From: a virus | Virus record (IMG/VR): IMGVR_UViG_3300030329_005835 | Location: 1 to 39,674 of that record | Direction: 5' to 3' (one strand) | DNA length: 39,674 bases | Shown here: positions 22,011-38,506 of the stretch, in pieces | Layout of the letters: each line of letters starts with the position of its first letter | Position numbering within the stretch: the stretch's first letter is position 1 | The notes under the pieces: generated by a model | The model's database searches: none | What the model saw: the letters and a program-made list of their open reading frames with translations, nothing else | What the model was told of the DNA's origin: nothing | Made by a program: the position numbers and the translations under genes

Positions 22011-22086
22011 TGGAGCGTCGAGGTCGGAATTGAACCGCCATATTCCTCTTGGAAAAGAGGACATGTTACCCTTACATCATCGACGC
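22011..22086 (-). tRNA. tRNA-Gly(UCC)-like with an 8-base anticodon loop
   Basis: Read on the minus strand, 76 bases fold as a tRNA: perfect acceptor stem GCGTCGA/TCGACGC, U8, D-stem ATGT/ACAT with loop AAGGGTA, anticodon stem TCCTC/GAGGA, T-loop TTCAATT with one mismatch in its stem, discriminator T73 and encoded CCA. Glycine identity elements are present (G1-C72, C2-G71, G3-C70, U73 and the CC of the anticodon). The anticodon loop is TTTTCCAA, eight bases instead of seven, an extra T relative to a normal UCC loop. Eight-base loops are known in +1 frameshift-suppressor tRNAs. The T-stem mismatch and one extra base near it could instead mean a decaying gene. Confidence 0.75.
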
Positions 22087-28076: not shown

Positions 28077-29042
28077 ATGTCCCATCAAGCCATGACCTAC
28101 GTCCTCGACCACAGCAAAGCCAGCAATCGCGCCCTACTCGTGCACCTCGCCCTGGCCGATCGCTGCGTGCAGCAGGATCCCGGGGATGGCGAATGGCGCG
28201 GACCCTACACCTGCTGGCCCGGCTTCAATGAACTCGCCAAACGCAGCCGCGTCACCTCCCGCCGGCAGATTTCCCGACTGATCGCGGACCTCAAACAGCT
28301 CGGAGAAATCGAGGAAATCGAATGTCGAAAAGGCCGCCTCAAAATCTACAAACTCACCGGCTTTGCCCGCCATCACGAGGAATCCCAGACCCCAGAAAGG
28401 CACCCAGATGTCCCCTCACAGGGCACCCAGATGTCCCCTCACCAGACCGTGACGGGACATCTGCGTCCCCCTGACGGGACATCTGCGTCACTCCAACGGG
28501 ACATTCAGGTGCCTGTGAGGGGACATCTGCGTTCCCCCTATATAACGGATAAACAGAAGGAACAGGAAGGAACGGTGTTAAGCACCCCACCCCCCGCCGT
28601 GGAACTCCCTGACCGATTTCCACAGACCGCCGAGCAGGCCAGGCAATGGACCCTCACCCCCGTCCCGCAGGATTTCATCGATCAATGGTGGTCCGAAGCC
28701 GCCGGGGCCGGTGGCAAAGACCCCTACACCGGCAAGCCCATCCACAACTGGTCCCACTGGATCGCGGCCAAGCACAACCGCCTTCGTTCCAGGGAATCAG
28801 AAGGCGGCCCGGACGCCAAAAATCCCGCCCGCAAAAAGAGCCGGGCCACCTCCGAAACCGCTCTCCGGATCGAACTCGACCGGCTGGAAAAGGAAATCCA
28901 CCAGATGCCCGGCCGACCCGGCAGCGAACACCTGCCCACGCCCGGCCAAAAAGCCGAATACCAGACCGCCCGCGAGCGGCGATCCCAGATCCTCGCCCAA
29001 CTCAGTGCTCCGGGCCTTCAATCCCTCAACCTCACCTCATGA
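28077..29042 (+). CDS. Replication initiator with winged-helix domain and internal iterons
   Basis: 321 residues. Residues 1-95 (SKASNRALLVHLALADRC...TCWPGFNELAKRSRVTSRRQISRLIADLKQLGEIEEIE) match the N-terminal winged helix of phage initiators of the lambda O / DnaD type. Residues 100-160 are encoded by repeated DNA (28399-28535) and read as Pro/His-rich low-complexity sequence, the organisation found when the origin lies within the initiator gene. The C-terminal part (QDFIDQWWSEAAGAG...YTGKPIHNWSHWIAAK) resembles the helicase-loading end of such proteins. Stop overlaps the helicase ATG (ATGA). It should bind the iterons and bring in DnaB. Confidence 0.8.
   Translation: MSHQAMTYVLDHSKASNRALLVHLALADRCVQQDPGDGEWRGPYTCWPGFNELAKRSRVTSRRQISRLIADLKQLGEIEEIECRKGRLKIYKLTGFARHHEESQTPERHPDVPSQGTQMSPHQTVTGHLRPPDGTSASLQRDIQVPVRGHLRSPYITDKQKEQEGTVLSTPPPAVELPDRFPQTAEQARQWTLTPVPQDFIDQWWSEAAGAGGKDPYTGKPIHNWSHWIAAKHNRLRSRESEGGPDAKNPARKKSRATSETALRIELDRLEKEIHQMPGRPGSEHLPTPGQKAEYQTARERRSQILAQLSAPGLQSLNLTS
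28399..28535 (+). repeat. Origin iterons inside the initiator gene
   Basis: Six related elements with core GGGACATCTG: two perfect 21-bp copies in reverse orientation (28399-28419, 28422-28442), then two perfect 17-bp GACGGGACATCTGCGTC copies (28451-28467, 28473-28489), and two diverged ones (28495-28513, 28519-28535). Periods are 22-24 bases, about two helical turns. This is the layout of a theta origin recognised by the initiator. Confidence 0.85.
28536..28557 (+). other. Candidate DNA-unwinding element beside the iterons
   Basis: Directly after the last iteron the sequence turns AT-rich (ctatataacggataaacagaa), unlike the GC-rich surroundings. Such a stretch next to iterons is where strand opening begins in lambda-type origins. 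Confidence 0.5.
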
Positions 29043-30475
29043 CCACCGCCAAACCAAGAACCAAGAACGAAGAACGCCTCCCCCCCCACTCCCTGGAAGC
29101 CGAGCGCGGCGCCCTCGGCTGCATCCTCCTCGATCCCGACCGCAGCCTCCCCGATTGCATCGAGCAACTCCCCGCCCTGGGCAAGGTCTTCTACGACCTC
29201 CGCCACCAGCTCATCTACGACCAATGCGTCGAGATGCACCACGCCGGGGAAGCCGTCGATCTGACCACCCTTGCCACCCGTCTCAAGGATGCCGGCCGCC
29301 TCTCCGAACTCGGCGGCATCGGCGGACTCACCGAACTGCAGGACACCGTTCCCAGCGCCCTCAACCTGCCCGCCTACCTCGAGATCCTGCGCGAAAAACA
29401 CACCACCCGGGAAATCCTGCGCGCCTGCTCCCTCACCATAGAAAACGTCTTTGACACGGCTGTTCAAGGCGGCTCTGCGAAACTGCTCGAGGAAGCCAAC
29501 CGCATCTTCACCGGCGTTCAGGAAACCCGACCCGAATCCACCCTCGTCACCGCCAGGGAAGGCGCCAAGAAACTCTGCGACATCCTCGACACCTACACCC
29601 GCGGCATTGGCATCCCCGGCGGCCTCAAATCCGGCCTGCACTACTACGACAAAATGCTCGGCGGCATGTTCCCCCAGGAATACGCCGTCCTCGCCGGCCG
29701 CCCCGGCTCCGGCAAGACCTCCTTCGCACTCAACCTCATCGAAGCCGTCGCCCTCGGCCAGGAACAACCCTGCGGCCTCTTCAGCCTCGAGATGACCACC
29801 GCCCAGCTCATGCTCCGCTGGGCCTGCCAGCACGGCCGCGTCAACCTCCAGAAATTCCGCACCGGCTACCTGGACAACGCCGACTTCCCCAAACTCACCA
29901 CCGCGTCCCTCAAGCTCGCCAACGCACCCATCTGGATCGACGACCGCTCCGGCATCACCGTCCACGAAATCCGCAGCAAAAGCCGGCGCCTCGTCAAGGA
30001 ACACGGCGTCAAGTTCATCGTCATCGATTACCTCCAGCTCATCCGCTCCTCCGATCCCCGCCTCGTCCGCGAGCAACAGGTCGCTGAGATCTCCGCTGAA
30101 CTCCTCGCCATGGCCAAGGAACTCCACATCCCCATCCTCGTCCTCGCCCAGCTCAACCGGCAGAGCGAAAGCGCCGACCGCGGCAACCACGGCCCCAAAC
30201 TCTCCGACCTCCGCGAATCCGGATCCGTCGAGCAGGACGCCCACAACGTCACCATCCTCTGGAACCCCAAGCCCAAGACCGACGACGAAGAAGCCCGGCT
30301 CGAACAATGGCAGGAACGCTTCGGCGGAGCCGCCGACGACTGGGCCGACAAGGTCCAATGGGTCCGCGCCCGCATCTGCAAAAACCGCAACGGCCCCACC
30401 GGAGACTGCGACCTCGTCTTCCGCAAGGCCCACATGAACTTCCTCGACCCCAACGACCGGCACCACCACCAATGA
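29039..30475 (+). CDS. dnaB: Replicative DNA helicase (DnaB family)
   Basis: 478 residues. N-terminal primase-interaction domain (PPHSLEAERGALGCILLDPDRS...) then the RecA-like ATPase: Walker A GRPGSGKTS (about 219-227), the 'FSLEMTTAQLMLR' motif, Walker B-like FIVIDYLQLI, and LAQLNRQSE...LRESGSVEQDAHNV near 380-405. The ring unwinds DNA at the fork ahead of the polymerase. The ATG at 29039 overlaps the initiator stop; sequence upstream in the same frame is a shadow of the initiator gene. The first codons sit in an AAGAACCAAGAACGAAGAACG-type repeat. Confidence 0.95.
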   Translation: MTTAKPRTKNEERLPPHSLEAERGALGCILLDPDRSLPDCIEQLPALGKVFYDLRHQLIYDQCVEMHHAGEAVDLTTLATRLKDAGRLSELGGIGGLTELQDTVPSALNLPAYLEILREKHTTREILRACSLTIENVFDTAVQGGSAKLLEEANRIFTGVQETRPESTLVTAREGAKKLCDILDTYTRGIGIPGGLKSGLHYYDKMLGGMFPQEYAVLAGRPGSGKTSFALNLIEAVALGQEQPCGLFSLEMTTAQLMLRWACQHGRVNLQKFRTGYLDNADFPKLTTASLKLANAPIWIDDRSGITVHEIRSKSRRLVKEHGVKFIVIDYLQLIRSSDPRLVREQQVAEISAELLAMAKELHIPILVLAQLNRQSESADRGNHGPKLSDLRESGSVEQDAHNVTILWNPKPKTDDEEARLEQWQERFGGAADDWADKVQWVRARICKNRNGPTGDCDLVFRKAHMNFLDPNDRHHHQ

Positions 30476-30828: not shown

Positions 30829-32703
30829 ATGCCCTCAACCCAGCCGAAGGCGAAAACGCCGTCCCGCGGTGATGTTACCCCCCATCCCTTGGAACCTTGG
30901 TTCACCGAGGAGGAGATCATGCGCATCATCCGCAAGGCCGGCGGACCCGAACAGCTCGGTCAACTCGCGGCCGAACGCGAACGCCGCATTGCAGCCGCCG
31001 ATCCCGAGACCGGTGATCCTCTCAAATACGGCTACGACCTCCCCCACTGGCAAGACGCCGACGACCTCCTCGCCCAGGGCATCCTCTTCCTCATCCTTCT
31101 TGGCGGCAACCGCTCCGGCAAATCCGAATATGCCGCCAAACGCATCATGCAATCCGCCGTCGAGAACGGAGGCGCCACCATCCTCTGCCTCGCCGAGAAC
31201 ATCGAAGCCAGCAACGAAACCCAGCAGGCCCTCATCTGGAAATACCTGCCCCGCCACCTCAAGACCCTAAACAAGAAACGCGATCGACGCGGCATCTACT
31301 CCATCAACTACACCCTCAAGGACGGCTTCCACGACAACAAGATCGTCCTCCACAACCGCACCAAGATATTCTTCAAGACCTACCAGCAGGATGCCGCCGA
31401 TGTCGAAGGCTGGATGTTCGGCCACAAAGACAAACTCATCCCCGCCATCTGGCCCGACGAAAACCTCCGCCTCCCCTGGCTCCAGGTCTTCGACCGACGC
31501 CTCCGCTATCAACCCGCCCAGATGATCTGGGCCTTCACCCCCATCAACGGCATGACCCCCACCATCAAGGAAGCCGTCGGAGCCGCCAAGACCCTCGTTC
31601 ACAAGGAAAGCGAACTCCTGCCCCACACCCAGAACGTCGAAGACTGCCCCATCGGCCACATGCCCTACATCCAGCAAAGCGCCCTCACCAACTCCCGCAC
31701 AATCTACTTCTGGTCCCAATTCAACCCCTTCGGCCCCAGCCTCTACAACGAACGAACCTTCTATGACGGAGTCCGGGAAACCGTCGAAGGCAAAGCCAGC
31801 AAGATCATCAAGCAAGTCGCCTACGGCTACTGCGAAGACACCATTGGAAAAGCCTTCCCCAACTTCAGCGCCATCCACCAGGTCAAGCCCGAACACCTCC
31901 CCGCCACCGGCACCAACTACATGATCACCGATCCCGCCGGAGCCCGGCGCTGGGCCACCATCTGGATCCGCGTTGCCACCGACGGCACTCTTTACGTCTA
32001 TCGCGACTGGCCCGACGCAGCCACCTACGGCGAATGGGCCATCCCCACCGCCAAAGCCGTCACCGACTCCAGCCGAGCCGGCTGGGATGGCGACCGCGGA
32101 CCCGCCCAGCACGACACCGAAGGCCTCGGCATCATCGATTACAAACGCATCTTCCTGAACGCCGAAACCGTCGGCCCCGAAGAATCGGATCCGTACCGCG
32201 CCCGCATCTGGACCCAGAACACCGGTGGCACCAGCGTCATTGAGATTCAGGCGGACGCCGATGCCGATCCCCCCAAGGAACACATCCACCGGCGCATCAT
32301 CGATCCCCGCGCCGGCGTCAACCCCCACGTCGCCGAACACGGAGGCACCAACATCATCGACGACTTTCGCAAGGTGCAGACCGATGCCGAAGGCAAGATC
32401 CTCGGCCCCAAGATGATCCTCCGCACCGGATCCGGAGTGAAGGAAGACCTCGGCACCAGCGCCATCAAGACCCGGCTCAGCTACGACAAGCAACGCCCCC
32501 TCGACGCCGTCACCAACTTTCCCCGCCTCCTCGTAAGCACCCAATGCCGGCAGCTCATCTGGTCCCTCAACAACTACACCGGCCGCGGCGGCCCCGACGG
32601 CGCCTGCAAAGACTACATCGACCTCCTGCGATACGCCGTCCTCGGCCGCCTCAAACACATCGATCAAACCCAACCCCGCGCCACCGGCACCGGAGCCTAT
32701 TGA
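30829..32703 (+). CDS. terL: Terminase large subunit
   Basis: 624 residues. ATPase domain with a Walker A-like GGNRSGKSEYAAK (about 92-104) and a Walker B region GHKDKLIPAIWPDE (about 198-211); nuclease (RNase H-like) domain starts at MITDPAGARRWATIWI (about 365) and includes EGLGIIDYKRIF and a later acidic cluster FRKVQTDAEG...SAIKTRL. It pumps DNA into the prohead through the portal and cuts concatemers. Downstream genes are a helix-turn-helix protein and, after a methyltransferase gene, the portal. Confidence 0.9.
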   Translation: MPSTQPKAKTPSRGDVTPHPLEPWFTEEEIMRIIRKAGGPEQLGQLAAERERRIAAADPETGDPLKYGYDLPHWQDADDLLAQGILFLILLGGNRSGKSEYAAKRIMQSAVENGGATILCLAENIEASNETQQALIWKYLPRHLKTLNKKRDRRGIYSINYTLKDGFHDNKIVLHNRTKIFFKTYQQDAADVEGWMFGHKDKLIPAIWPDENLRLPWLQVFDRRLRYQPAQMIWAFTPINGMTPTIKEAVGAAKTLVHKESELLPHTQNVEDCPIGHMPYIQQSALTNSRTIYFWSQFNPFGPSLYNERTFYDGVRETVEGKASKIIKQVAYGYCEDTIGKAFPNFSAIHQVKPEHLPATGTNYMITDPAGARRWATIWIRVATDGTLYVYRDWPDAATYGEWAIPTAKAVTDSSRAGWDGDRGPAQHDTEGLGIIDYKRIFLNAETVGPEESDPYRARIWTQNTGGTSVIEIQADADADPPKEHIHRRIIDPRAGVNPHVAEHGGTNIIDDFRKVQTDAEGKILGPKMILRTGSGVKEDLGTSAIKTRLSYDKQRPLDAVTNFPRLLVSTQCRQLIWSLNNYTGRGGPDGACKDYIDLLRYAVLGRLKHIDQTQPRATGTGAY

Positions 32704-32705
32704 CC

Positions 32706-33056
32706 ATGAACACCACCCCGCCATTCACCCAGGAACGCTTCGAATCCCTGCCCGTTCTCCTGCCCGTCGCCGTCATGCAGGCCTGGACCGGTCTGCGCAG
32801 CGAAGTCCTGGCCGCCATGGCCAAGGCCGGGGAGATCGACCGCCTCGAAGTCGCCGGCATGCTGCCCCGCTACTACAAATACGACCTCGCCAAGCTCGGC
32901 GGCTTCCAGCTCAGCCACACCCCCTCCGACCGCCTCCGCCTCACCTGCATCAACCAGCACTATCAACGCCTGCGAACCCCCCTCTTCACCCGCGAAACCA
33001 TGGACCTCGATCAACTCCGGCAGTGGACCCGAGAGCTGGGGGAAATACTGGGGTGA
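32706..33056 (+). CDS. Helix-turn-helix protein next to terminase, possible small subunit
   Basis: 116 residues. The segment LLPVAVMQAWTGLRSEVLAAMAKAGEIDRLEVAGMLPRYYKYDLAKLGGF (about 16-66) looks like an Xis/MerR-type helix-turn-helix with a wing. It starts 2 bases after the large-terminase stop. A packaging-site recognition role is possible, although the small subunit usually precedes the large one; a regulator is equally likely. Confidence 0.55.
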   Translation: MNTTPPFTQERFESLPVLLPVAVMQAWTGLRSEVLAAMAKAGEIDRLEVAGMLPRYYKYDLAKLGGFQLSHTPSDRLRLTCINQHYQRLRTPLFTRETMDLDQLRQWTRELGEILG

Positions 33057-33086
33057 TTTACGAATGATTCGAATGACGATTTACGA
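33055..33086. repeat. Paired GATTTACGA motifs upstream of MTase 1
   Basis: GATTTACGA occurs at 33055-33063 and 33078-33086, separated by atgattcgaatgac. With 2441-2450, 34153-34183 and 38322-38346 it marks the leaders of four late genes or operons. Confidence 0.4.
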
Positions 33087-33106: not shown

Positions 33107-33745
33107 ATGAATGAGCTGGCACTATTCGCAGGCGCTGGTGGCGGAATACTCGGCGGGAAACTCCTCGGATGGAAGACCGTCTGTGCCGTCGAAATCGAAG
33201 ACTACTGCCGCCGGGTGCTCATGCAGCGGCAGGACGACGGAATCCTCGATCCCTTCCCCATCTGGGACGACGTGCGGAGCTTCGACGGACGGCCCTGGCG
33301 TGGCGTGGTGGATATCGTCACTGGCGGCTTCCCCTGCCAGGACATCTCAGTCGCCGGCCAAGGCGCCGGGATCACCGGCGAACGCAGCGGACTCTGGGCC
33401 GAAATGGCAAGGATCATTCGCGAAGTGGGACCACGGCACGTCCTCGTGGAAAACTCACCAATGCTCACTTCTCGGGGGCTGGGAGTCTTACTTGGAGACC
33501 TGGCCCAAATGGGGTTCGATGCGGAATGGGGCGTGCTGGGAGCGGCAGACGCCATCTGGCTTGACGGCATACCGTGCCTGGATCACCTCCGTGATCGCAT
33601 CTGGATCCTCGCAACGCATGCCGACGCCCTGCGCCATGGAGCCGGAGAAAGATCTACTGAAGCTGGAACAAAAGCGGGCCCTTCCGCGCTCCGTTCGGGG
33701 CGGAGGCGCGGACAGCAATCGCGGCCACGTGACCAGCACCGATAG
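33107..33745 (+). CDS. Cytosine-C5 DNA methyltransferase 1, N-terminal part (motifs I-VIII), ends at in-frame TAG
   Basis: 212 residues before TAG at 33743-33745. Motif I FAGAGGG (7-13), the catalytic Pro-Cys-Gln in GGFPCQDIS with Cys77, motif VI-like ENSPML (115-120) and the motif VIII Arg in LRDRIWILA (161-169) are all present, so cofactor binding and catalysis look possible. The frame resumes after the stop and includes motif X (33746-34060). The enzyme would methylate cytosine C5 in phage DNA; the target is not predictable. A +1 overlapping frame (33111-34052) covers the whole gene. It lies between terminase and portal genes. Confidence 0.75.
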   Translation: MNELALFAGAGGGILGGKLLGWKTVCAVEIEDYCRRVLMQRQDDGILDPFPIWDDVRSFDGRPWRGVVDIVTGGFPCQDISVAGQGAGITGERSGLWAEMARIIREVGPRHVLVENSPMLTSRGLGVLLGDLAQMGFDAEWGVLGAADAIWLDGIPCLDHLRDRIWILATHADALRHGAGERSTEAGTKAGPSALRSGRRRGQQSRPRDQHR

Positions 33746-34052
33746 CACCCAAAGGCGCGAGGAGAACGGACAGGCGAACCTTGCGGAATGGATCGTGAAC
33801 CATCCGCAACGGATTCCCACACCAACCAATCAGGATTCCAAGAACTGCACCCTGCCACCCTCGCAGAAGGATCGGGATTCAATCCCAGGGTGGCTTCTGT
33901 CGAATACCCCGACGAAGTCGGCTGGTGGCAGTCTGAACCCGACGTGGGTCGAGTGGCTCATGGGGTGGCCCATCGGGTGGACCGACTCAAGGCCATTGGC
34001 AACGGACAGGTTCCCGCAGTGGCTGCTCTCGCATGGGAAATACTGCACGTGA
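33111..34052 (+). CDS. Overprinted +1 frame of MTase 1 (MSWHYSQAL-type ORF)
   Basis: 313 codons starting 4 bases after the MTase start. Its first residues MSWHYSQALVAEYSAG, middle TSSWKTHQCSLL...ETWPKWGSMRNGACWE and C-terminus GGSLNPTWVEWLMGWPIGWTD...RFPQWL form a protein-like pattern that I recall as a recurrent phage ORF, with E-W-L-M-G-x-P-x-G-W resembling methyltransferase motif IX. The paralogous locus keeps the same ORF (37123). Unlike the main frame it has no stop here. Length alone is weak evidence in this GC-rich genome; see findings for the codon comparison. Confidence 0.45.
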   Translation: MSWHYSQALVAEYSAGNSSDGRPSVPSKSKTTAAGCSCSGRTTESSIPSPSGTTCGASTDGPGVAWWISSLAASPARTSQSPAKAPGSPANAADSGPKWQGSFAKWDHGTSSWKTHQCSLLGGWESYLETWPKWGSMRNGACWERQTPSGLTAYRAWITSVIASGSSQRMPTPCAMEPEKDLLKLEQKRALPRSVRGGGADSNRGHVTSTDSTQRREENGQANLAEWIVNHPQRIPTPTNQDSKNCTLPPSQKDRDSIPGWLLSNTPTKSAGGSLNPTWVEWLMGWPIGWTDSRPLATDRFPQWLLSHGKYCT

Positions 34053-34060
34053 AACAATGA
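33746..34060 (+). pseudogene. MTase 1 C-terminal part after the TAG (motif X)
   Basis: Same frame as 33107-33745. The last 40 residues (WWQSEPDVGRVAHG..., then LKAIGNGQVPAVAALAWEIL) are the standard methyltransferase C-terminal motif with G-N-x-Q-V-P, while the region just after the TAG looks non-protein-like in this frame. Either a nonsense mutation, a split enzyme with a second start near the ATG at 33788, or a product made by readthrough or frameshifting. Confidence 0.55.
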
Positions 34061-34091
34061 ACACCTATCAGGCGGCGAAGGTGCAAGCCGC

Positions 34092-34119
34092 CTGATTGAG
34101 GGATGCGATCCTCAATCGG
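34092..34119 (+). terminator. Hairpin after the MTase 1 locus
   Basis: GATTGAGG (34094-34101) and CCTCAATC (34110-34117) form a perfect 8-bp stem with an 8-base loop, extended by a G-T and a C-G pair outward. No T-run follows. It sits 32 bases after the last MTase frame and before the CA-rich portal leader. Confidence 0.45.
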
Positions 34120-34148
34120 CAGAACGCACAAGATCAGGCATGAGCACC

Positions 34149-34209
34149 CCACCGTAAATCGTAAATCGAATCACTCGTAAATCCCCCACATCCACTACCC
34201 TCCACTACC
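34149..34209 (+). repeat. Duplicated CA-rich late leader, copy A (portal)
   Basis: This segment (ccaccgtaaatcgtaaatcg...tcactcgtaaatccccca...ccactaccctccactaccctc) is closely similar to 38312-38370 upstream of the scaffold gene. Both follow a methyltransferase locus and precede a head gene, so a cassette (MTase plus leader) seems to have been duplicated or inserted twice. The downstream CAACTACACCCCCAACTCCC run has no Shine-Dalgarno. Confidence 0.65.
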
Positions 34210-34272
34210 CTCAACTACACCCCCAACTCCCAACTCCCAACCCGAACTTCCAAACCATGCTACCCGAACGGG

Positions 34273-36426
34273 ATGCATTCCGAATCAGCCCTGGCTGAAC
34301 GCCCCACTGAGGACGAGATCTCCGAACTCGCCTCCGAGTTCCATCGATTCTCCTCCCAGCGGGATTCACTCAGCGCCGATCGCGACCGGCTCAACTACGA
34401 CACCCGCCATTGCATCTGGCGCAACCAGAGCCCCGACGGACGCAAATGGGCCGGCCCGGACGGCAAGGTCTGGCCCTGGCCCGGCGCCGCCGACCACCGC
34501 GTCAAGCTCACCGACAAGCTCATCCGCGAAGACGCGGCCCTCCTCATGGTCGCCTGGTCCCGCATGCGCATCCATGCCAATCCGATGGATGCCAGCGATG
34601 CGGAGTGGGCCAACAAGGCGACCTCCCTCCTCAAGTGGATGAAATTCTCCCAGATGACCGAGTCCCGGCGCGAAGCCGAACTCACCGCCAACTGGATGCT
34701 CGAGCGCGGCAAATCCATCATGAAAATCTGCTGGCAACGCGAACAGCAGCTCGAGCGGGTGGAGGTGGACCTCGAAGACGTGCGCGCCACCGCCATGGCC
34801 GCCATTGCCCAGATCCGCCAGATGGCCGATCGCGGACAATCCATCCCCGACGAACTTTCCCTGCAGGCCGAACTCCCCGACCTCATTCTTTCCCAGGAAC
34901 GCGAATCCGAAGCCGTGGAAGCAGCGGCCGACTTCGCCCCCCACCTCGACGCCAAGCGCCGCCGGAAGGTCATCCGCGATCTTCGCGAGAACGGCGTGGC
35001 CACCTTTCCCCGGCCCTATGTCGTCACCGACCGGCCCATGCTCACCGCCCTGCCGCTGAACGAGGAAATATTCATCCCGCCCGAATGCTCCGACCTGGAG
35101 AAAGCCAGCGCCATCTACCAGCGCGAACTCATCACCGAGACCGACCTGCGCGACCGCGAACGCAGCCACGGTTACGCCGCCGATTGGATCGAATACGCGG
35201 CCGGACATCTCAAGGGCAAGCACACCAACCTCATCGAGGCCCTGCAAACCCGCACCAAGGTCCGGCGCGGGCTCAACCTCTGGAGCGAGCAGGGCACCGA
35301 GAAGCTCTACGAGATCATCCACTGCTGGTCCCGGCGTTATGATGAAGACGGCATCCCCGGCATCTACTACACCGTCTTCAATCCCGGGTATCCGGAGGCC
35401 GTCGCCTATCACAACATTCTCAACTACGACCACGGCAAATACCCATTCGTCCTCTTCCAGAACGAATATCTGAGCCGGCAGCCCGATGATTCCCGCGGAT
35501 ACGGCGAGATCAGCATCACCGCCCAGAACGCGATCAAGGTGCAATGGGATTCGCGGACCGATCGCACTGCTTTGACCACCGTGCCGCCCATGTACTACCC
35601 TGAAGGCGAAGAGGTCAATGAATGGGGACCAGGCTCCCGTGTCGCCACCAGCCGCCCCACCGAATTCGGCTATCTCGACGTGCCGCGGCATGACCTGGGC
35701 TCGCAGGAAATCGAGCACACTGTCCGCGAATTCGAGGAGGAATACCACGGGCGCCTCGCCCGGGGAGGATCCAACGTCGTGCAATCCACCTCCCTCCGGC
35801 AGCAGAAGGTGGACAACTGGCTCGCCTCCTGGAAACAGGTCGATGTTCAGACCCTGCAGCTCTGCCAGCAATACCTGCCCGCCCAGACCCACGTTCGCCT
35901 CACCGGAGCCGGTCGCCAGGGCGAATCCCTCCGCCTCTCCCGCGCCGAGATCCAGGGCAACTTCGATCTGGACCTCGGATACACCGCCGAAGACCTCATT
36001 CCCGAAGTCGTCAAGGAGAAGATAGGGCTCATGCGCGACACCCTGCAGATCGATCGCAACGGCCGCATGGACCCCGACGCCGTCATTGAAGCCTGTTTCG
36101 ACCTGGTGGATCCCTCCCTCGGCGATCGCGTGCTCATGCCCGGCCAGGACGCCAGCACCCGGATGCGCGAGAAAGTCCGCGCCGACGTGCTACAGATGTT
36201 CGCCGGCAACGAAGTTGACTATGTGGAGAACGATCCCAGCGCCAGCGGCAAGCTCGACTACCTCAACGAAGTCTTCGCCGAGAACCCCAACTACCAGCAG
36301 GCCTACCAGGAAGACCAGCGTTTCCACGACCTCATGGACAACTACTTCAAGAACCTCATGCACTCCGTCCAGCAACTCGGCGCCAATGCCTTCGCCGGCC
36401 GCTCCGGAGTCAAGGAACTCTCATGA
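34273..36426 (+). CDS. Portal protein
   Basis: 717 residues, the size of large podovirus portals. Recognisable parts: helical N-terminus (SSQRDSLSADRDRLNYDTRHCIWRNQSPDGRKW), the wing region with AADHRVKLTDKLIREDAALLMVAW, a central beta region (YTVFNPGYPEAVAYHNILNYDHGKYPFVLFQNEYLSR), the stem/crown helices (RRYDEDGIP..., EYHGRLARGGSNVVQSTSLRQQKVDNW) and an acidic C-terminal helix set. Twelve copies would form the DNA channel at one vertex and bind terminase. Order terminase-portal-scaffold-capsid is standard. Stop overlaps the next small gene (ATGA). Confidence 0.85.
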   Translation: MHSESALAERPTEDEISELASEFHRFSSQRDSLSADRDRLNYDTRHCIWRNQSPDGRKWAGPDGKVWPWPGAADHRVKLTDKLIREDAALLMVAWSRMRIHANPMDASDAEWANKATSLLKWMKFSQMTESRREAELTANWMLERGKSIMKICWQREQQLERVEVDLEDVRATAMAAIAQIRQMADRGQSIPDELSLQAELPDLILSQERESEAVEAAADFAPHLDAKRRRKVIRDLRENGVATFPRPYVVTDRPMLTALPLNEEIFIPPECSDLEKASAIYQRELITETDLRDRERSHGYAADWIEYAAGHLKGKHTNLIEALQTRTKVRRGLNLWSEQGTEKLYEIIHCWSRRYDEDGIPGIYYTVFNPGYPEAVAYHNILNYDHGKYPFVLFQNEYLSRQPDDSRGYGEISITAQNAIKVQWDSRTDRTALTTVPPMYYPEGEEVNEWGPGSRVATSRPTEFGYLDVPRHDLGSQEIEHTVREFEEEYHGRLARGGSNVVQSTSLRQQKVDNWLASWKQVDVQTLQLCQQYLPAQTHVRLTGAGRQGESLRLSRAEIQGNFDLDLGYTAEDLIPEVVKEKIGLMRDTLQIDRNGRMDPDAVIEACFDLVDPSLGDRVLMPGQDASTRMREKVRADVLQMFAGNEVDYVENDPSASGKLDYLNEVFAENPNYQQAYQEDQRFHDLMDNYFKNLMHSVQQLGANAFAGRSGVKELS

Positions 36427-36593
36427 CCCTGATCGTGACTCAAACGGCGGACCGGGGATGCCTCAAGATGCTCCAAGCCACAGACAACATGATTCGCGCG
36501 CGTAAACCCCGGCGGCAGAAATACTGGACCGCCCAGATGATCCGCTGGTTTCACTCACCAGTCCATTCCCCATCTCGTCCTCATCGAGTTTGA
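36423..36593 (+). CDS. Small basic protein coupled to the portal gene
   Basis: 56 residues, starting in an ATGA overlap with the portal stop. Middle section MIRARKPRRQKYWTAQMIRWFHSP is strongly basic. No family recognised; the overlap and an uninterrupted frame to a natural stop are the support. Confidence 0.4.
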   Translation: MTLIVTQTADRGCLKMLQATDNMIRARKPRRQKYWTAQMIRWFHSPVHSPSRPHRV

Positions 36594-36609
36594 ACTCGTC
36601 AACTCCCCC

Positions 36610-36933
36610 ATGAAATCCCGCAGCCAACAACTTCAAGCCCTCGGCCGCGAGATGAGCCCCGAGGAAATCCACGGCGCCATCCACGAACTCTCCCGGTTGG
36701 ACAAATTTGGCGCCATTTACGCCTTGCTCGCCCAGGAGGAACGGCAGGTGGACAACGTGCTGTGCTCCCTGGAGACCGTGCTGGACCACGCCATCCTCGC
36801 CCGGGCCGCCGGAGCCAAGCGGGCCTTCAAGCTCACCCTCCCTGGCGCCCTCAATCGCCACGTCGATCCCCGCCCCGAATCCCAACCCCACCCCGAAGAC
36901 CCCATCCACGACGAGGAAGGCGGTATGGGGTGA
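36610..36933 (+). CDS. Hypothetical acidic-tailed helical protein
   Basis: 107 residues. Helical N-terminal two thirds (LQALGREMSPEEIHGAIHELSRLDKFGAIYALLAQEERQVDNVLCSLETVLDHAILARAAGAK) followed by a Pro/Glu/Asp-rich tail. Between portal and MTase 2; could be a head-assembly factor or part of the MTase cassette. No family recognised. Confidence 0.5.
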   Translation: MKSRSQQLQALGREMSPEEIHGAIHELSRLDKFGAIYALLAQEERQVDNVLCSLETVLDHAILARAAGAKRAFKLTLPGALNRHVDPRPESQPHPEDPIHDEEGGMG

Positions 36934-37118
36934 CCGGCGATGTATCGCCAAGGACGCCTCTGTTCAGCCTAGCTGCGCCCGACAACTCAAAACGCATCAG
37001 GCCAGCCACACCAGACGGGAGCCAGCGATGATTGAAATAAGAACCATTGAACAGGGTGAAGCGCAAGACTCAAGGGGGTCTGGTGTTGGTCTGCGCCGTC
37101 TTGTTCTGCACTTTTGCG

Positions 37119-37901
37119 ATGAATGAGTTGGCACTTTTCACAGGCACTGGAGGCGGAATACTTGCAAGCAAATTGCTTGGATGGAAAACGATCTGCGCGG
37201 TCGAATACGAGGAACACGCAAGGGAACTGCTTAAAGCAAGACAGAACGATGGATGTCTCGACCTGTTCCCAATCTGGGACGACGTTACCACCTTCGACGG
37301 CATGCCGTGGAAAGGACGTGTTGACGTGGTTTCTGGGGGTTTTCCCTGTCAGGACATCAGCGCGGCGAACTACAAAGCGGAAGGGATTAGCGGTAAGCGA
37401 TCCGGCCTCTGGTCAGAAATGGCGCGAATTGTATCTGAAGTGCAACCGGGATGGGTATTCGTTGAAAACTCTCCAATGCTTGTGGGACGAGGACTTGCCG
37501 TGGTCTTGTGTGACCTTGCCGAAATGGGGTATGATGCGGTCTGGGGAATTGTGGGAGCTGGACACATCGGCTATCCCCATCTGCGTGAACGGTGTTGGGT
37601 ATATGCCCACAATCCTGAAAACGCAGATCCTGGAAAAGACCGATCCCATAGCGGTCGGGCAGGTGAAAGCAAACCACCAAACGGGATACGTCCAAAAAAC
37701 CTCAAAGAATGGGAAGGATGGCTCAGCTCCCTGGCCGCTGTGGATGTTGTATCACGGGTTCCTTCCTACTCCGAAGGCCGCCGAATGTTTTATGGGATTC
37801 CCGGAGGGTTGGACAGACTTGCAAGGCTCGGCAATGCTCAAGTTCCGGCAGTGGCTGCGGAAGCGTGGAAAATTCTTGAGCAACTACACACTGAAAAATG
37901 A
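37119..37901 (+). CDS. Cytosine-C5 DNA methyltransferase 2
   Basis: 260 residues from the ATG at 37119, intact. Motif I FTGTGGG (7-13), catalytic Cys77 in GGFPCQDIS, ENSPML (motif VI-like), LRERCWVYA (motif VIII Arg) and a C-terminal RLGNAQVPAVAAEAWKIL (motif X). It is about 60% like MTase 1 by eye over the N-terminal 150 residues, with a different target-recognition region. The upstream in-frame extension from TTG at 37047 is less likely. GC is lower than in the neighbours, suggesting separate acquisition. Its stop overlaps the next ATG. Methylation of phage DNA against host restriction is the likely purpose. Confidence 0.8.
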   Translation: MNELALFTGTGGGILASKLLGWKTICAVEYEEHARELLKARQNDGCLDLFPIWDDVTTFDGMPWKGRVDVVSGGFPCQDISAANYKAEGISGKRSGLWSEMARIVSEVQPGWVFVENSPMLVGRGLAVVLCDLAEMGYDAVWGIVGAGHIGYPHLRERCWVYAHNPENADPGKDRSHSGRAGESKPPNGIRPKNLKEWEGWLSSLAAVDVVSRVPSYSEGRRMFYGIPGGLDRLARLGNAQVPAVAAEAWKILEQLHTEK

Positions 37902-38091
37902 GAAAACGAACACCACAAACGACGACGGAATACCTGGAGGAGTATCAGCCGGACATGGAAGCGGCAACGATGGAGCTTCTGAAGATGATCCGAGCGGACA
38001 AACCACGGGAGGAAATCATGGAGATGGTGGATTACATCTCGGAATTTTGGCAGGAGAGCGATCCGGTAGCGATGGGTTGGGTGGGAGCTGA
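37123..38091 (+). CDS. Overprinted +1 frame of MTase 2 (MSWHFSQAL-type ORF)
   Basis: 322 codons, +1 to MTase 2 and starting 4 bases later, as in locus 1. It aligns with the locus-1 second frame: MSWHxSQALxAEY, SGTT, RTSA/Q, the block K-T-x-Q-C...T-x-P-K-W-G-x-M-R-x-G...W-E, and the E-x-x-M-G-x-P-x-G-W-T-D block near 37790-37820. The last 60 codons run on over the next gene in a third frame and look like noise (Gly/Ser-rich), so a functional product, if any, may end near the KRGKF segment at about 37873. Staying open for 322 codons in lower-GC DNA is less expected by chance than in the rest of this genome. Confidence 0.4.
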   Translation: MSWHFSQALEAEYLQANCLDGKRSARSNTRNTQGNCLKQDRTMDVSTCSQSGTTLPPSTACRGKDVLTWFLGVFPVRTSARRTTKRKGLAVSDPASGQKWRELYLKCNRDGYSLKTLQCLWDEDLPWSCVTLPKWGMMRSGELWELDTSAIPICVNGVGYMPTILKTQILEKTDPIAVGQVKANHQTGYVQKTSKNGKDGSAPWPLWMLYHGFLPTPKAAECFMGFPEGWTDLQGSAMLKFRQWLRKRGKFLSNYTLKNEKTNTTNDDGIPGGVSAGHGSGNDGASEDDPSGQTTGGNHGDGGLHLGILAGERSGSDGLGGS

Positions 38092-38104
38092 CGGGAGACC
38101 GTGA
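37898..38104 (+). CDS. Hypothetical small acidic protein behind MTase 2
   Basis: 68 residues (acidic, helical: EYLEEYQPDMEAATMELLKMIRADKPREEIMEMVDYISEFW). Starts in an ATGA overlap with MTase 2, so translation is coupled. It may assist or regulate the methyltransferase; no family recognised. Confidence 0.5.
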   Translation: MRKRTPQTTTEYLEEYQPDMEAATMELLKMIRADKPREEIMEMVDYISEFWQESDPVAMGWVGADGRP

Positions 38105-38277: not shown

Positions 38278-38506
38278 TTTTTCCAGCCAGAACGATCAAA
38301 GGTGAGCCGCCCACCGAAAACCGTAAATCGAACCACTCGTAACTCCCCCACCCACTACGTTCCACTACCCTCCGCTACACCCGCCTCGCCCCTCGCCCCT
38401 CGGCCCTCGTCCCACCTGCTATAGAGTGCAGCCTGTTAACTGAAACTGGTTCCCTGGCGGGGCCATGAACCAACACCGCCTGGTCCTCTTGCAGACGAAA
38501 AACAGC
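38278..38506. other. Non-coding CA-rich leader upstream of the scaffold gene
   Basis: No gene found. The stretch holds the leader repeat copy B (38312-38370) with GATTTACGA-type motifs (38322-38346), then a CTCGCCCCTCG-type simple sequence and a weak AT patch (gctatagagtgcagcctgttaactg, about 38418-38443) that may contain a late promoter. No Shine-Dalgarno precedes the ATG at 38507; an in-frame ATG at 38465 would add 14 residues. Confidence 0.5.
38312..38370 (+). repeat. Duplicated CA-rich late leader, copy B (scaffold)
   Basis: Matches 34149-34209 (portal leader) at most positions: ccaccg-aaa-ccgtaaatcgaaccactcgtaactccccca then cactac-ttccactaccctc. Both copies lie between a methyltransferase locus and a head gene. 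Confidence 0.65.

Follow-up and report, generated by a model that had tools for sequence, protein, structure and literature searches.

Overlapping reading frames at two phage loci: a probable two-polypeptide C5-cytosine methyltransferase encoded in one stretch of DNA

M.EcoHK31I and M.EaeI are YGGCCR C5 methyltransferases composed of two polypeptides. In M.EcoHK31I, the beta polypeptide is the product of an internal open reading frame (ORF) of roughly 180 codons, which reportedly occupies part of the alpha gene, read in a different frame. The large polypeptide carries motifs I-VIII and X, and the small polypeptide carries motif IX (PMC3404938). A comparable layout is described here for a phage, IMG/VR virus record IMGVR_UViG_3300030329_005835, of which the whole stretch analyzed, 39,674 nucleotides (nt) long, is referred to as the window. 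It contains two C5-cytosine methyltransferase loci, one either side of a portal-like gene (Table 1). At each of them the methylase frame is termed alpha, and the +1 frame opened by an ATG 4 nt downstream of the alpha ATG is termed beta. The initial annotation, which had placed the paired ATGs at 33107/33111 and 37119/37123 and derived from them +1 ORFs of more than 300 codons, both starting MSWHxSQALxAEY, was exact in these respects; the two ORFs measure 313 and 322 codons. With a probability of roughly 0.8, judged from sequence, each locus specifies a two-polypeptide C5-cytosine methyltransferase of the M.EcoHK31I kind whose two genes overlap fully on one stretch of DNA.

Comparison with described enzymes

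The likeness to M.EcoHK31I lies in the placement of motifs I-VIII and X on one polypeptide and of motif IX on the other, an arrangement that is intact at locus 2, whereas alpha is interrupted at locus 1. The small-subunit ORF is also observed here within the large-subunit gene in another frame, as is said of M.EcoHK31I. Likened by description, the two systems differ in that beta here starts 4 nt after alpha and spans the whole gene (~230-376 codons), and in that conservation of the recognition region is strongest in beta here, whereas M.EcoHK31I has this region assigned to alpha. Plasmid searches for the Escherichia coli counterpart returned none that was clear.

M.AquI-type enzymes and the gp78/gp77 pair of mycobacteriophage Eagle likewise consist of two polypeptides, with motifs I-VIII on the first and motif IX on the second. 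However, motif X is on the second polypeptide in the M.AquI type, and because it is in the alpha frame here, the M.AquI class is excluded. The Eagle genes (L175:1477-2572) represent an M.AquI-like side-by-side split, and similar annotated pairs occur in many mycobacteriophages; their overlap measures only 23 nt, whereas here it is nearly complete. The single-chain enzymes M.HhaI and phage RitaG gp71 share the catalytic fold and a homologous motif IX block, but hold all motifs in one frame and have no protected +1 frame. A link to the canonical EcoRII-type enzymes was rejected, since beta gave no profile match to E. coli pSYM2 Dcm. A search confined to the open literature turned up nothing on the overlapped family beyond M.EcoHK31I and M.AquI. 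Two-polypeptide enzymes of the M.EcoHK31I kind were already known, and the overlapped form appears as both new and widespread.

Purifying selection on both reading frames

Homologues were gathered from viral contigs and bacterial genomes via the alpha frame only, and nearly all of them contain the same beta ORF. For the stop-codon test, synonymous codons of alpha were shuffled in 106 sequences starting xNELALF and dereplicated at 90%. The beta (+1) frame of these sequences holds 0 stops in 16,016 N-terminal codons, against 270±11 expected from the permutation; as the sequences are related, such counts are not independent, but chance cannot account for zero stops in 106 sequences whose alpha identity has a median of 64%. 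The +2 frame has 814 stops where 622 are expected, and the beta ORF reaches at least 229 codons in every member but one, which runs off its contig. Openness arising by chance from guanine-cytosine (GC) content is ruled out by the permutation counts, by the GC subsets (0 stops against 73 expected above 58% GC, and 0 against 46 below 50%), by a control family of single-chain and split methylases at 65% GC (166 +1 stops against 188 expected, only 5 of 51 sequences being free of them), and by the window loci alone (0 against 3.3 expected, P=0.008, and 0 against 5.3, P=0.0002; synonymous-codon permutation). Stops in the second frame, whose frequency among close homologues the initial annotation had singled out as decisive, are absent from this alpha-selected set.

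The converse test, conditioned on beta, gave 2 stops in the alpha frame between motifs VIII and IX against 232 expected. In a second set of homologues, selected via beta, alpha is intact through motif X in 73 of 77; the remaining four include two contig ends and one motif X variant missed by the pattern. Collection bias was discounted, the beta test having used the alpha-selected set and the alpha test the beta-selected one. Along the full length of the gene, alpha and beta are each subject to strong purifying selection.

In a +1 overlap, the third codon positions at which alpha can change silently serve beta as second positions. Segment identities from 87 independent close homologue pairs alternate between the frames: alpha/beta amino-acid identity is 0.88/0.72 in motifs I-VIII, 0.27/0.44 in the recognition region between motifs VIII and IX, 0.72/0.82 in the LNPxWVEWLMGxPxGWTD block (motif IX) and 0.77/0.63 in motif X. 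The ratio of third- to first-position changes in alpha follows the same segments, at 1.97, 0.70, 0.49 and 1.52, respectively. Such an alternation, of the kind that selection on two frames would produce, had been proposed from the two window copies; it recurs in the 87 pairs, and the codon-position patterns flip at the places originally claimed. Recounting kept the beta lead of 8 of 13 in the block ending in GWTD, with alpha at 4 rather than 5, and upheld the alpha lead over 35 codons around ENSPML at 23/35 against 11/35 in place of 24 and 15 (the register may differ slightly); alpha also leads in motif X, as had been stated.

Once alpha is accounted for, reduced variation at second-frame sites is seen at positions that are silent in alpha and change beta, in line with the expectation of the initial annotation. 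Within the alpha-led half, beta columns such as the W of MSW (W3), the P and G in WPxWG and the W in SWKT show conservation far above the alpha-based expectation, the Pro and Gly of WPxWG being 100% conserved against 22-31% expected. Synonymous constraint peaks at alpha codons 1-10, 111-120 and 131-140, with no peak at codons 91-100; at codons 1-10 it could stem partly from initiation signals. The distance from the start of beta motif IX to the GN of alpha motif X is a 14-codon offset in 77 of 78 cases.

The two proteins and their alternative explanations

Both alphas match PF00145, and their motif VI reads ENS, where the usual form is ENV. The features that define C5-cytosine DNA methyltransferases, namely motifs I, IV (PCQ), VI (ENx), VIII and X and the S-adenosylmethionine (AdoMet) fold, were all found, motif X of locus 1 lying past the stop. 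An AlphaFold2 model of locus 2 alpha spans M.HhaI end to end (Z 19.8, 193 of 327 residues). Its residues 181-190 and 208-237 have a predicted local distance difference test (pLDDT) score below 50, and alpha is therefore predicted to lack an ordered target-recognition domain. It also lacks motif IX; the only IX-like block is located in beta. All 60 betas tested match phrog_1008, a family labelled DNA methyltransferase, which (positions 132-326) covers the post-motif-VIII half of RitaG gp71; this single-chain methylase combines an alpha-like half and a phrog_1008 half. Eagle gp77 belongs, as beta does, to the phrog_1008 family. In profile alignments, the beta LNPxWVEWLMGWPxGWT block aligned to the motif IX of RitaG gp71 with a probability of 93 and to that of Eagle gp77 with 94. 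The earlier suggestion that the second frame might supply part of the enzyme gains support from the 60 phrog_1008 matches and from the match of this block to single-chain actinophage C5 methylases. Among 60 beta members no credible Pfam match was obtained, and the N-terminal half resembles nothing known; NCBIfam gave no match, and a PDB sequence search with beta no credible one.

The start of beta and the division of the motifs are both conserved. The beta ATG is kept in 185/185 distinct homologous loci and is directly preceded by TGA or TAA in 178 of them, while alpha starts with ATG in 85, GTG in 51, TTG in 27 and none of these in 22. In 81 loci this TGA/TAA is also the stop codon of an upstream ORF at least 40 codons long; no such ORF is present at either window locus. 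The layout would fit termination-reinitiation at a pair of starts that lie one base to each side of the stop.

Under the two-polypeptide reading, alpha would supply motifs I-VIII, for AdoMet binding and catalysis, together with motif X at its C-terminus, and beta the target-recognition region and motif IX, its part in DNA recognition being suggested by position and homology. Translation of both would begin at the paired start ATG-A-ATG, and the two products would assemble into a single active enzyme, probably an orphan phage methylase that shields phage DNA from host restriction. Several observations weigh against this arrangement. A TAG codon cuts motif X off from the alpha of locus 1, and one of the two loci in this phage may be inactive or dependent on the other. 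No Shine-Dalgarno site is evident at either window locus. The profile match of beta to single-chain enzymes is mainly limited to the motif IX block and the PTPxxxD region, and beta alone is poorly modelled by AlphaFold2 (pLDDT 55, predicted template modelling score 0.28), too poorly for a fold search. A poor lone model is nevertheless compatible with a protein that folds only alongside alpha.

Beta might instead act on its own, perhaps in anti-restriction or regulation, from a gene overprinted on that of the methylase, and not be a subunit of the enzyme. Its N-terminal half, conserved in its own right yet matching nothing in Pfam or the PDB, would suit such a protein, but alpha has no motif IX and the only IX-like block sits in beta at a fixed 14-codon offset from alpha motif X; moreover, RitaG gp71 carries the homologous region as an in-frame fusion with alpha-like motifs, and in Eagle gp78/gp77 the two are neighbors. 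This explanation is accordingly held to be improbable. Slightly less credence is given to programmed ribosomal frameshifting, by which alpha I-VIII would be joined to the recognition region and motif IX of beta, so that the hybrid is the enzyme and beta is not separately initiated. Motifs I-VIII and IX do lie in different frames, and a switch would be placed after motif VIII and before the recognition region. However, the beta ATG is invariant and in most loci comes immediately after a stop codon, the beta frame is free of stops and conserved also in the part that precedes any switch point, and the hybrid would have no motif X, which is still under selection in alpha. Long +1 ORFs also occur in GC-rich DNA, and the N-terminal half is better conserved in alpha than in beta, as might be anticipated if the second frame were an artefact of GC content or codon usage, or the relic of an old frameshift with no present function. 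Such an artefact is already refuted by the stop and start statistics: beta stops are missing below 50% GC as well, the +2 frame has them in excess, the start is conserved, and beta residues are conserved over unconstrained silent sites of alpha.

Locus structure, distribution and origin

Table 1. Coordinates of the two methyltransferase loci and neighboring genes in the window.
Feature	Position	Strand	Evidence or detail
DnaB helicase gene	28646-30475		
Terminase-like gene	30829-32703		
Locus 1 ATGAATG double start	33107..33113	+	alpha ATG, TGA (beta frame), beta ATG
Locus 1 alpha, motifs I-VIII, ends at in-frame TAG	33107..33745	+	Pfam PF00145 E=7e-26; phrog_363 E=6e-50
Locus 1 alpha motif sites	PCQ 33323-33343, ENSPML 33449-33466, RDRIWI 33590-33607	+	
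Alpha 1 frame past TAG: motif X (RLKAIGNGQVPAV, 33983-34021) and C-terminal helix	33788..34060	+	phrog_32758 E=2e-15; phrog_363 E=5e-7
Locus 1 beta (P0001, 313 amino acids (aa)), +1 frame	33111..34052	+	phrog_1008 'DNA methyltransferase' E=2e-21; family-wide stop avoidance, start conservation
Locus 1 beta sites	SWKTHQCSL 33444-33470, WPKWGSMRNG 33501-33530	+	
Locus 1 motif IX-like block LNPTWVEWLMGWPIGWTD, beta frame only	33933..33986	+	hhalign to RitaG gp71 motif IX region, probability 93; beta leads here in 87 pairs
Portal-like gene	34273-36426		
Locus 2 ATGAATG double start	37119..37125	+	
Locus 2 alpha (P0002, 260 aa), intact	37119..37901	+	Pfam PF00145 E=3e-27; AlphaFold2 model aligned to M.HhaI
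Locus 2 alpha motif sites	PCQ 37335-37355, ENSPML 37464-37481, RERCWV 37584-37601, motif X 37815-37853	+	
Locus 2 beta (P0003, 322 aa), +1 frame	37123..38091	+	phrog_1008 E=5e-9; aligned with 59 other betas
Locus 2 beta sites	SLKTLQCLW 37459-37485, LPKWGMMRSGELW 37516-37554	+	
Locus 2 motif IX-like block CFMGFPEGWTD, beta frame	37786..37818	+	

At locus 1, beta is intact and the alpha ORF comprises only 212 codons because of the in-frame TAG at 33743-33745, upstream of motif X. This TAG may be a genuine mutation or may stem from misassembly, and the locus 1 copy may be damaged; alpha stops ahead of motif X are rare among homologues (e.g., L021, L093, L258). Recoding of TAG was rejected as an account of the stop, as no suppressor transfer RNA (tRNA) was identified in the window and TAG likewise terminates other phage genes. 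At 22011-22086 (minus strand), a tRNA-like gene with a two-base anticodon call (undetermined type) was reported by ARAGORN. At locus 2, beta extends ~190 nt past the alpha stop (beyond ~37901) over a separate ORF of 68 aa, and this tail is probably not part of the conserved protein. The 68-aa ORF (37898-38104) overlaps the alpha 2 stop (ATGA) and is in another frame than the beta tail. Inverted repeats of 35 nt (33051-33085 and 34153-34187, 89% complementary) flank methylase locus 1, and the downstream repeat (34132-34238) has partial direct copies again after locus 2 (38294-38398); the methylase loci may be inserted cassettes.

The overlapped arrangement recurs in phages and prophages over roughly ten bacterial phyla, in hundreds of loci. 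Matches in bacterial genomes, assigned by record title, come from Pseudomonadota, Verrucomicrobiota, Lentisphaeria, Planctomycetes, Chloroflexota, Spirochaetota, Desulfobacterota, Campylobacterota, Patescibacteria, KSB1 and Omnitrophota, and the locus is also present in Leptospira plasmids and in phages of Acinetobacter, Salmonella, Vibrio, Pseudomonas and Microcystis. Usually only one frame is annotated, mainly alpha, although some records have beta instead, entered as a hypothetical protein; in Paenibacillus phages both overlapping frames are annotated as 'methyltransferases.' Apparent standalone beta genes in Bacteroides finegoldii plasmids (L343, L344) proved on inspection to be overlapped loci in which alpha is interrupted early, at the same place in both. 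A Picosynechococcus plasmid methylase of another subfamily (L179:1498-2608) has a long open +1 frame with a YMGFP block and is possibly an independent case.

In a tree of the alpha core, drawn with midpoint rooting and with the canonical enzymes falling outside, the clade with full-length beta is well supported (100/98). It is nested among lineages in which the beta frame opens only at alpha codon 25-65, found in phages of Synechococcus, Paenibacillus, Mycobacterium and Porphyromonas and in one Bacteroides plasmid, and this position suggests that the first 25-65 codons of beta were overprinted de novo. The ancestor was likely a single-chain enzyme in which the frame changed at two points, one separating motif VIII from the recognition region and the other motif IX from motif X. 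The recognition/IX part would then have persisted as an internally started beta, which in one clade likely lengthened upstream over the catalytic core to an ATG beside the alpha start. Eagle, with motifs IX and X together on gp77, shows another outcome. The alpha tree places the two window loci (W1 and W2) in separate positions, although branch support near W1 is weak; a recent tandem duplication is not supported, and since the loci do not group they look like separate acquisitions. The odds lean slightly toward a stronger version of this history, in which the whole gene of the clade is obligatorily dual-coding, beta is an internal recognition/IX subunit grown to alpha length by N-terminal overprinting on the catalytic core, and the fused ATG-A-ATG sets the subunit ratio.

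Genes with long overlaps are seldom seen in bacteria and their phages, and such cases are contested. In this family, how dual coding arose and what it costs can be tested directly, because methylation provides a readout and natural relatives exist in single-chain, side-by-side and overlapped forms. Many genes annotated as 'DNA cytosine methyltransferase' probably represent half an enzyme, so that a clone of the annotated frame with recoded codons would lose the partner and yield an inactive protein. Annotation pipelines in which overlaps are disallowed conceal a conserved protein family for which neither Pfam nor NCBIfam has a model. If the whole gene is indeed obligatorily dual-coding, alpha and beta would be among the longest and most widespread same-strand overlapping pairs known, with both partners in one enzyme.

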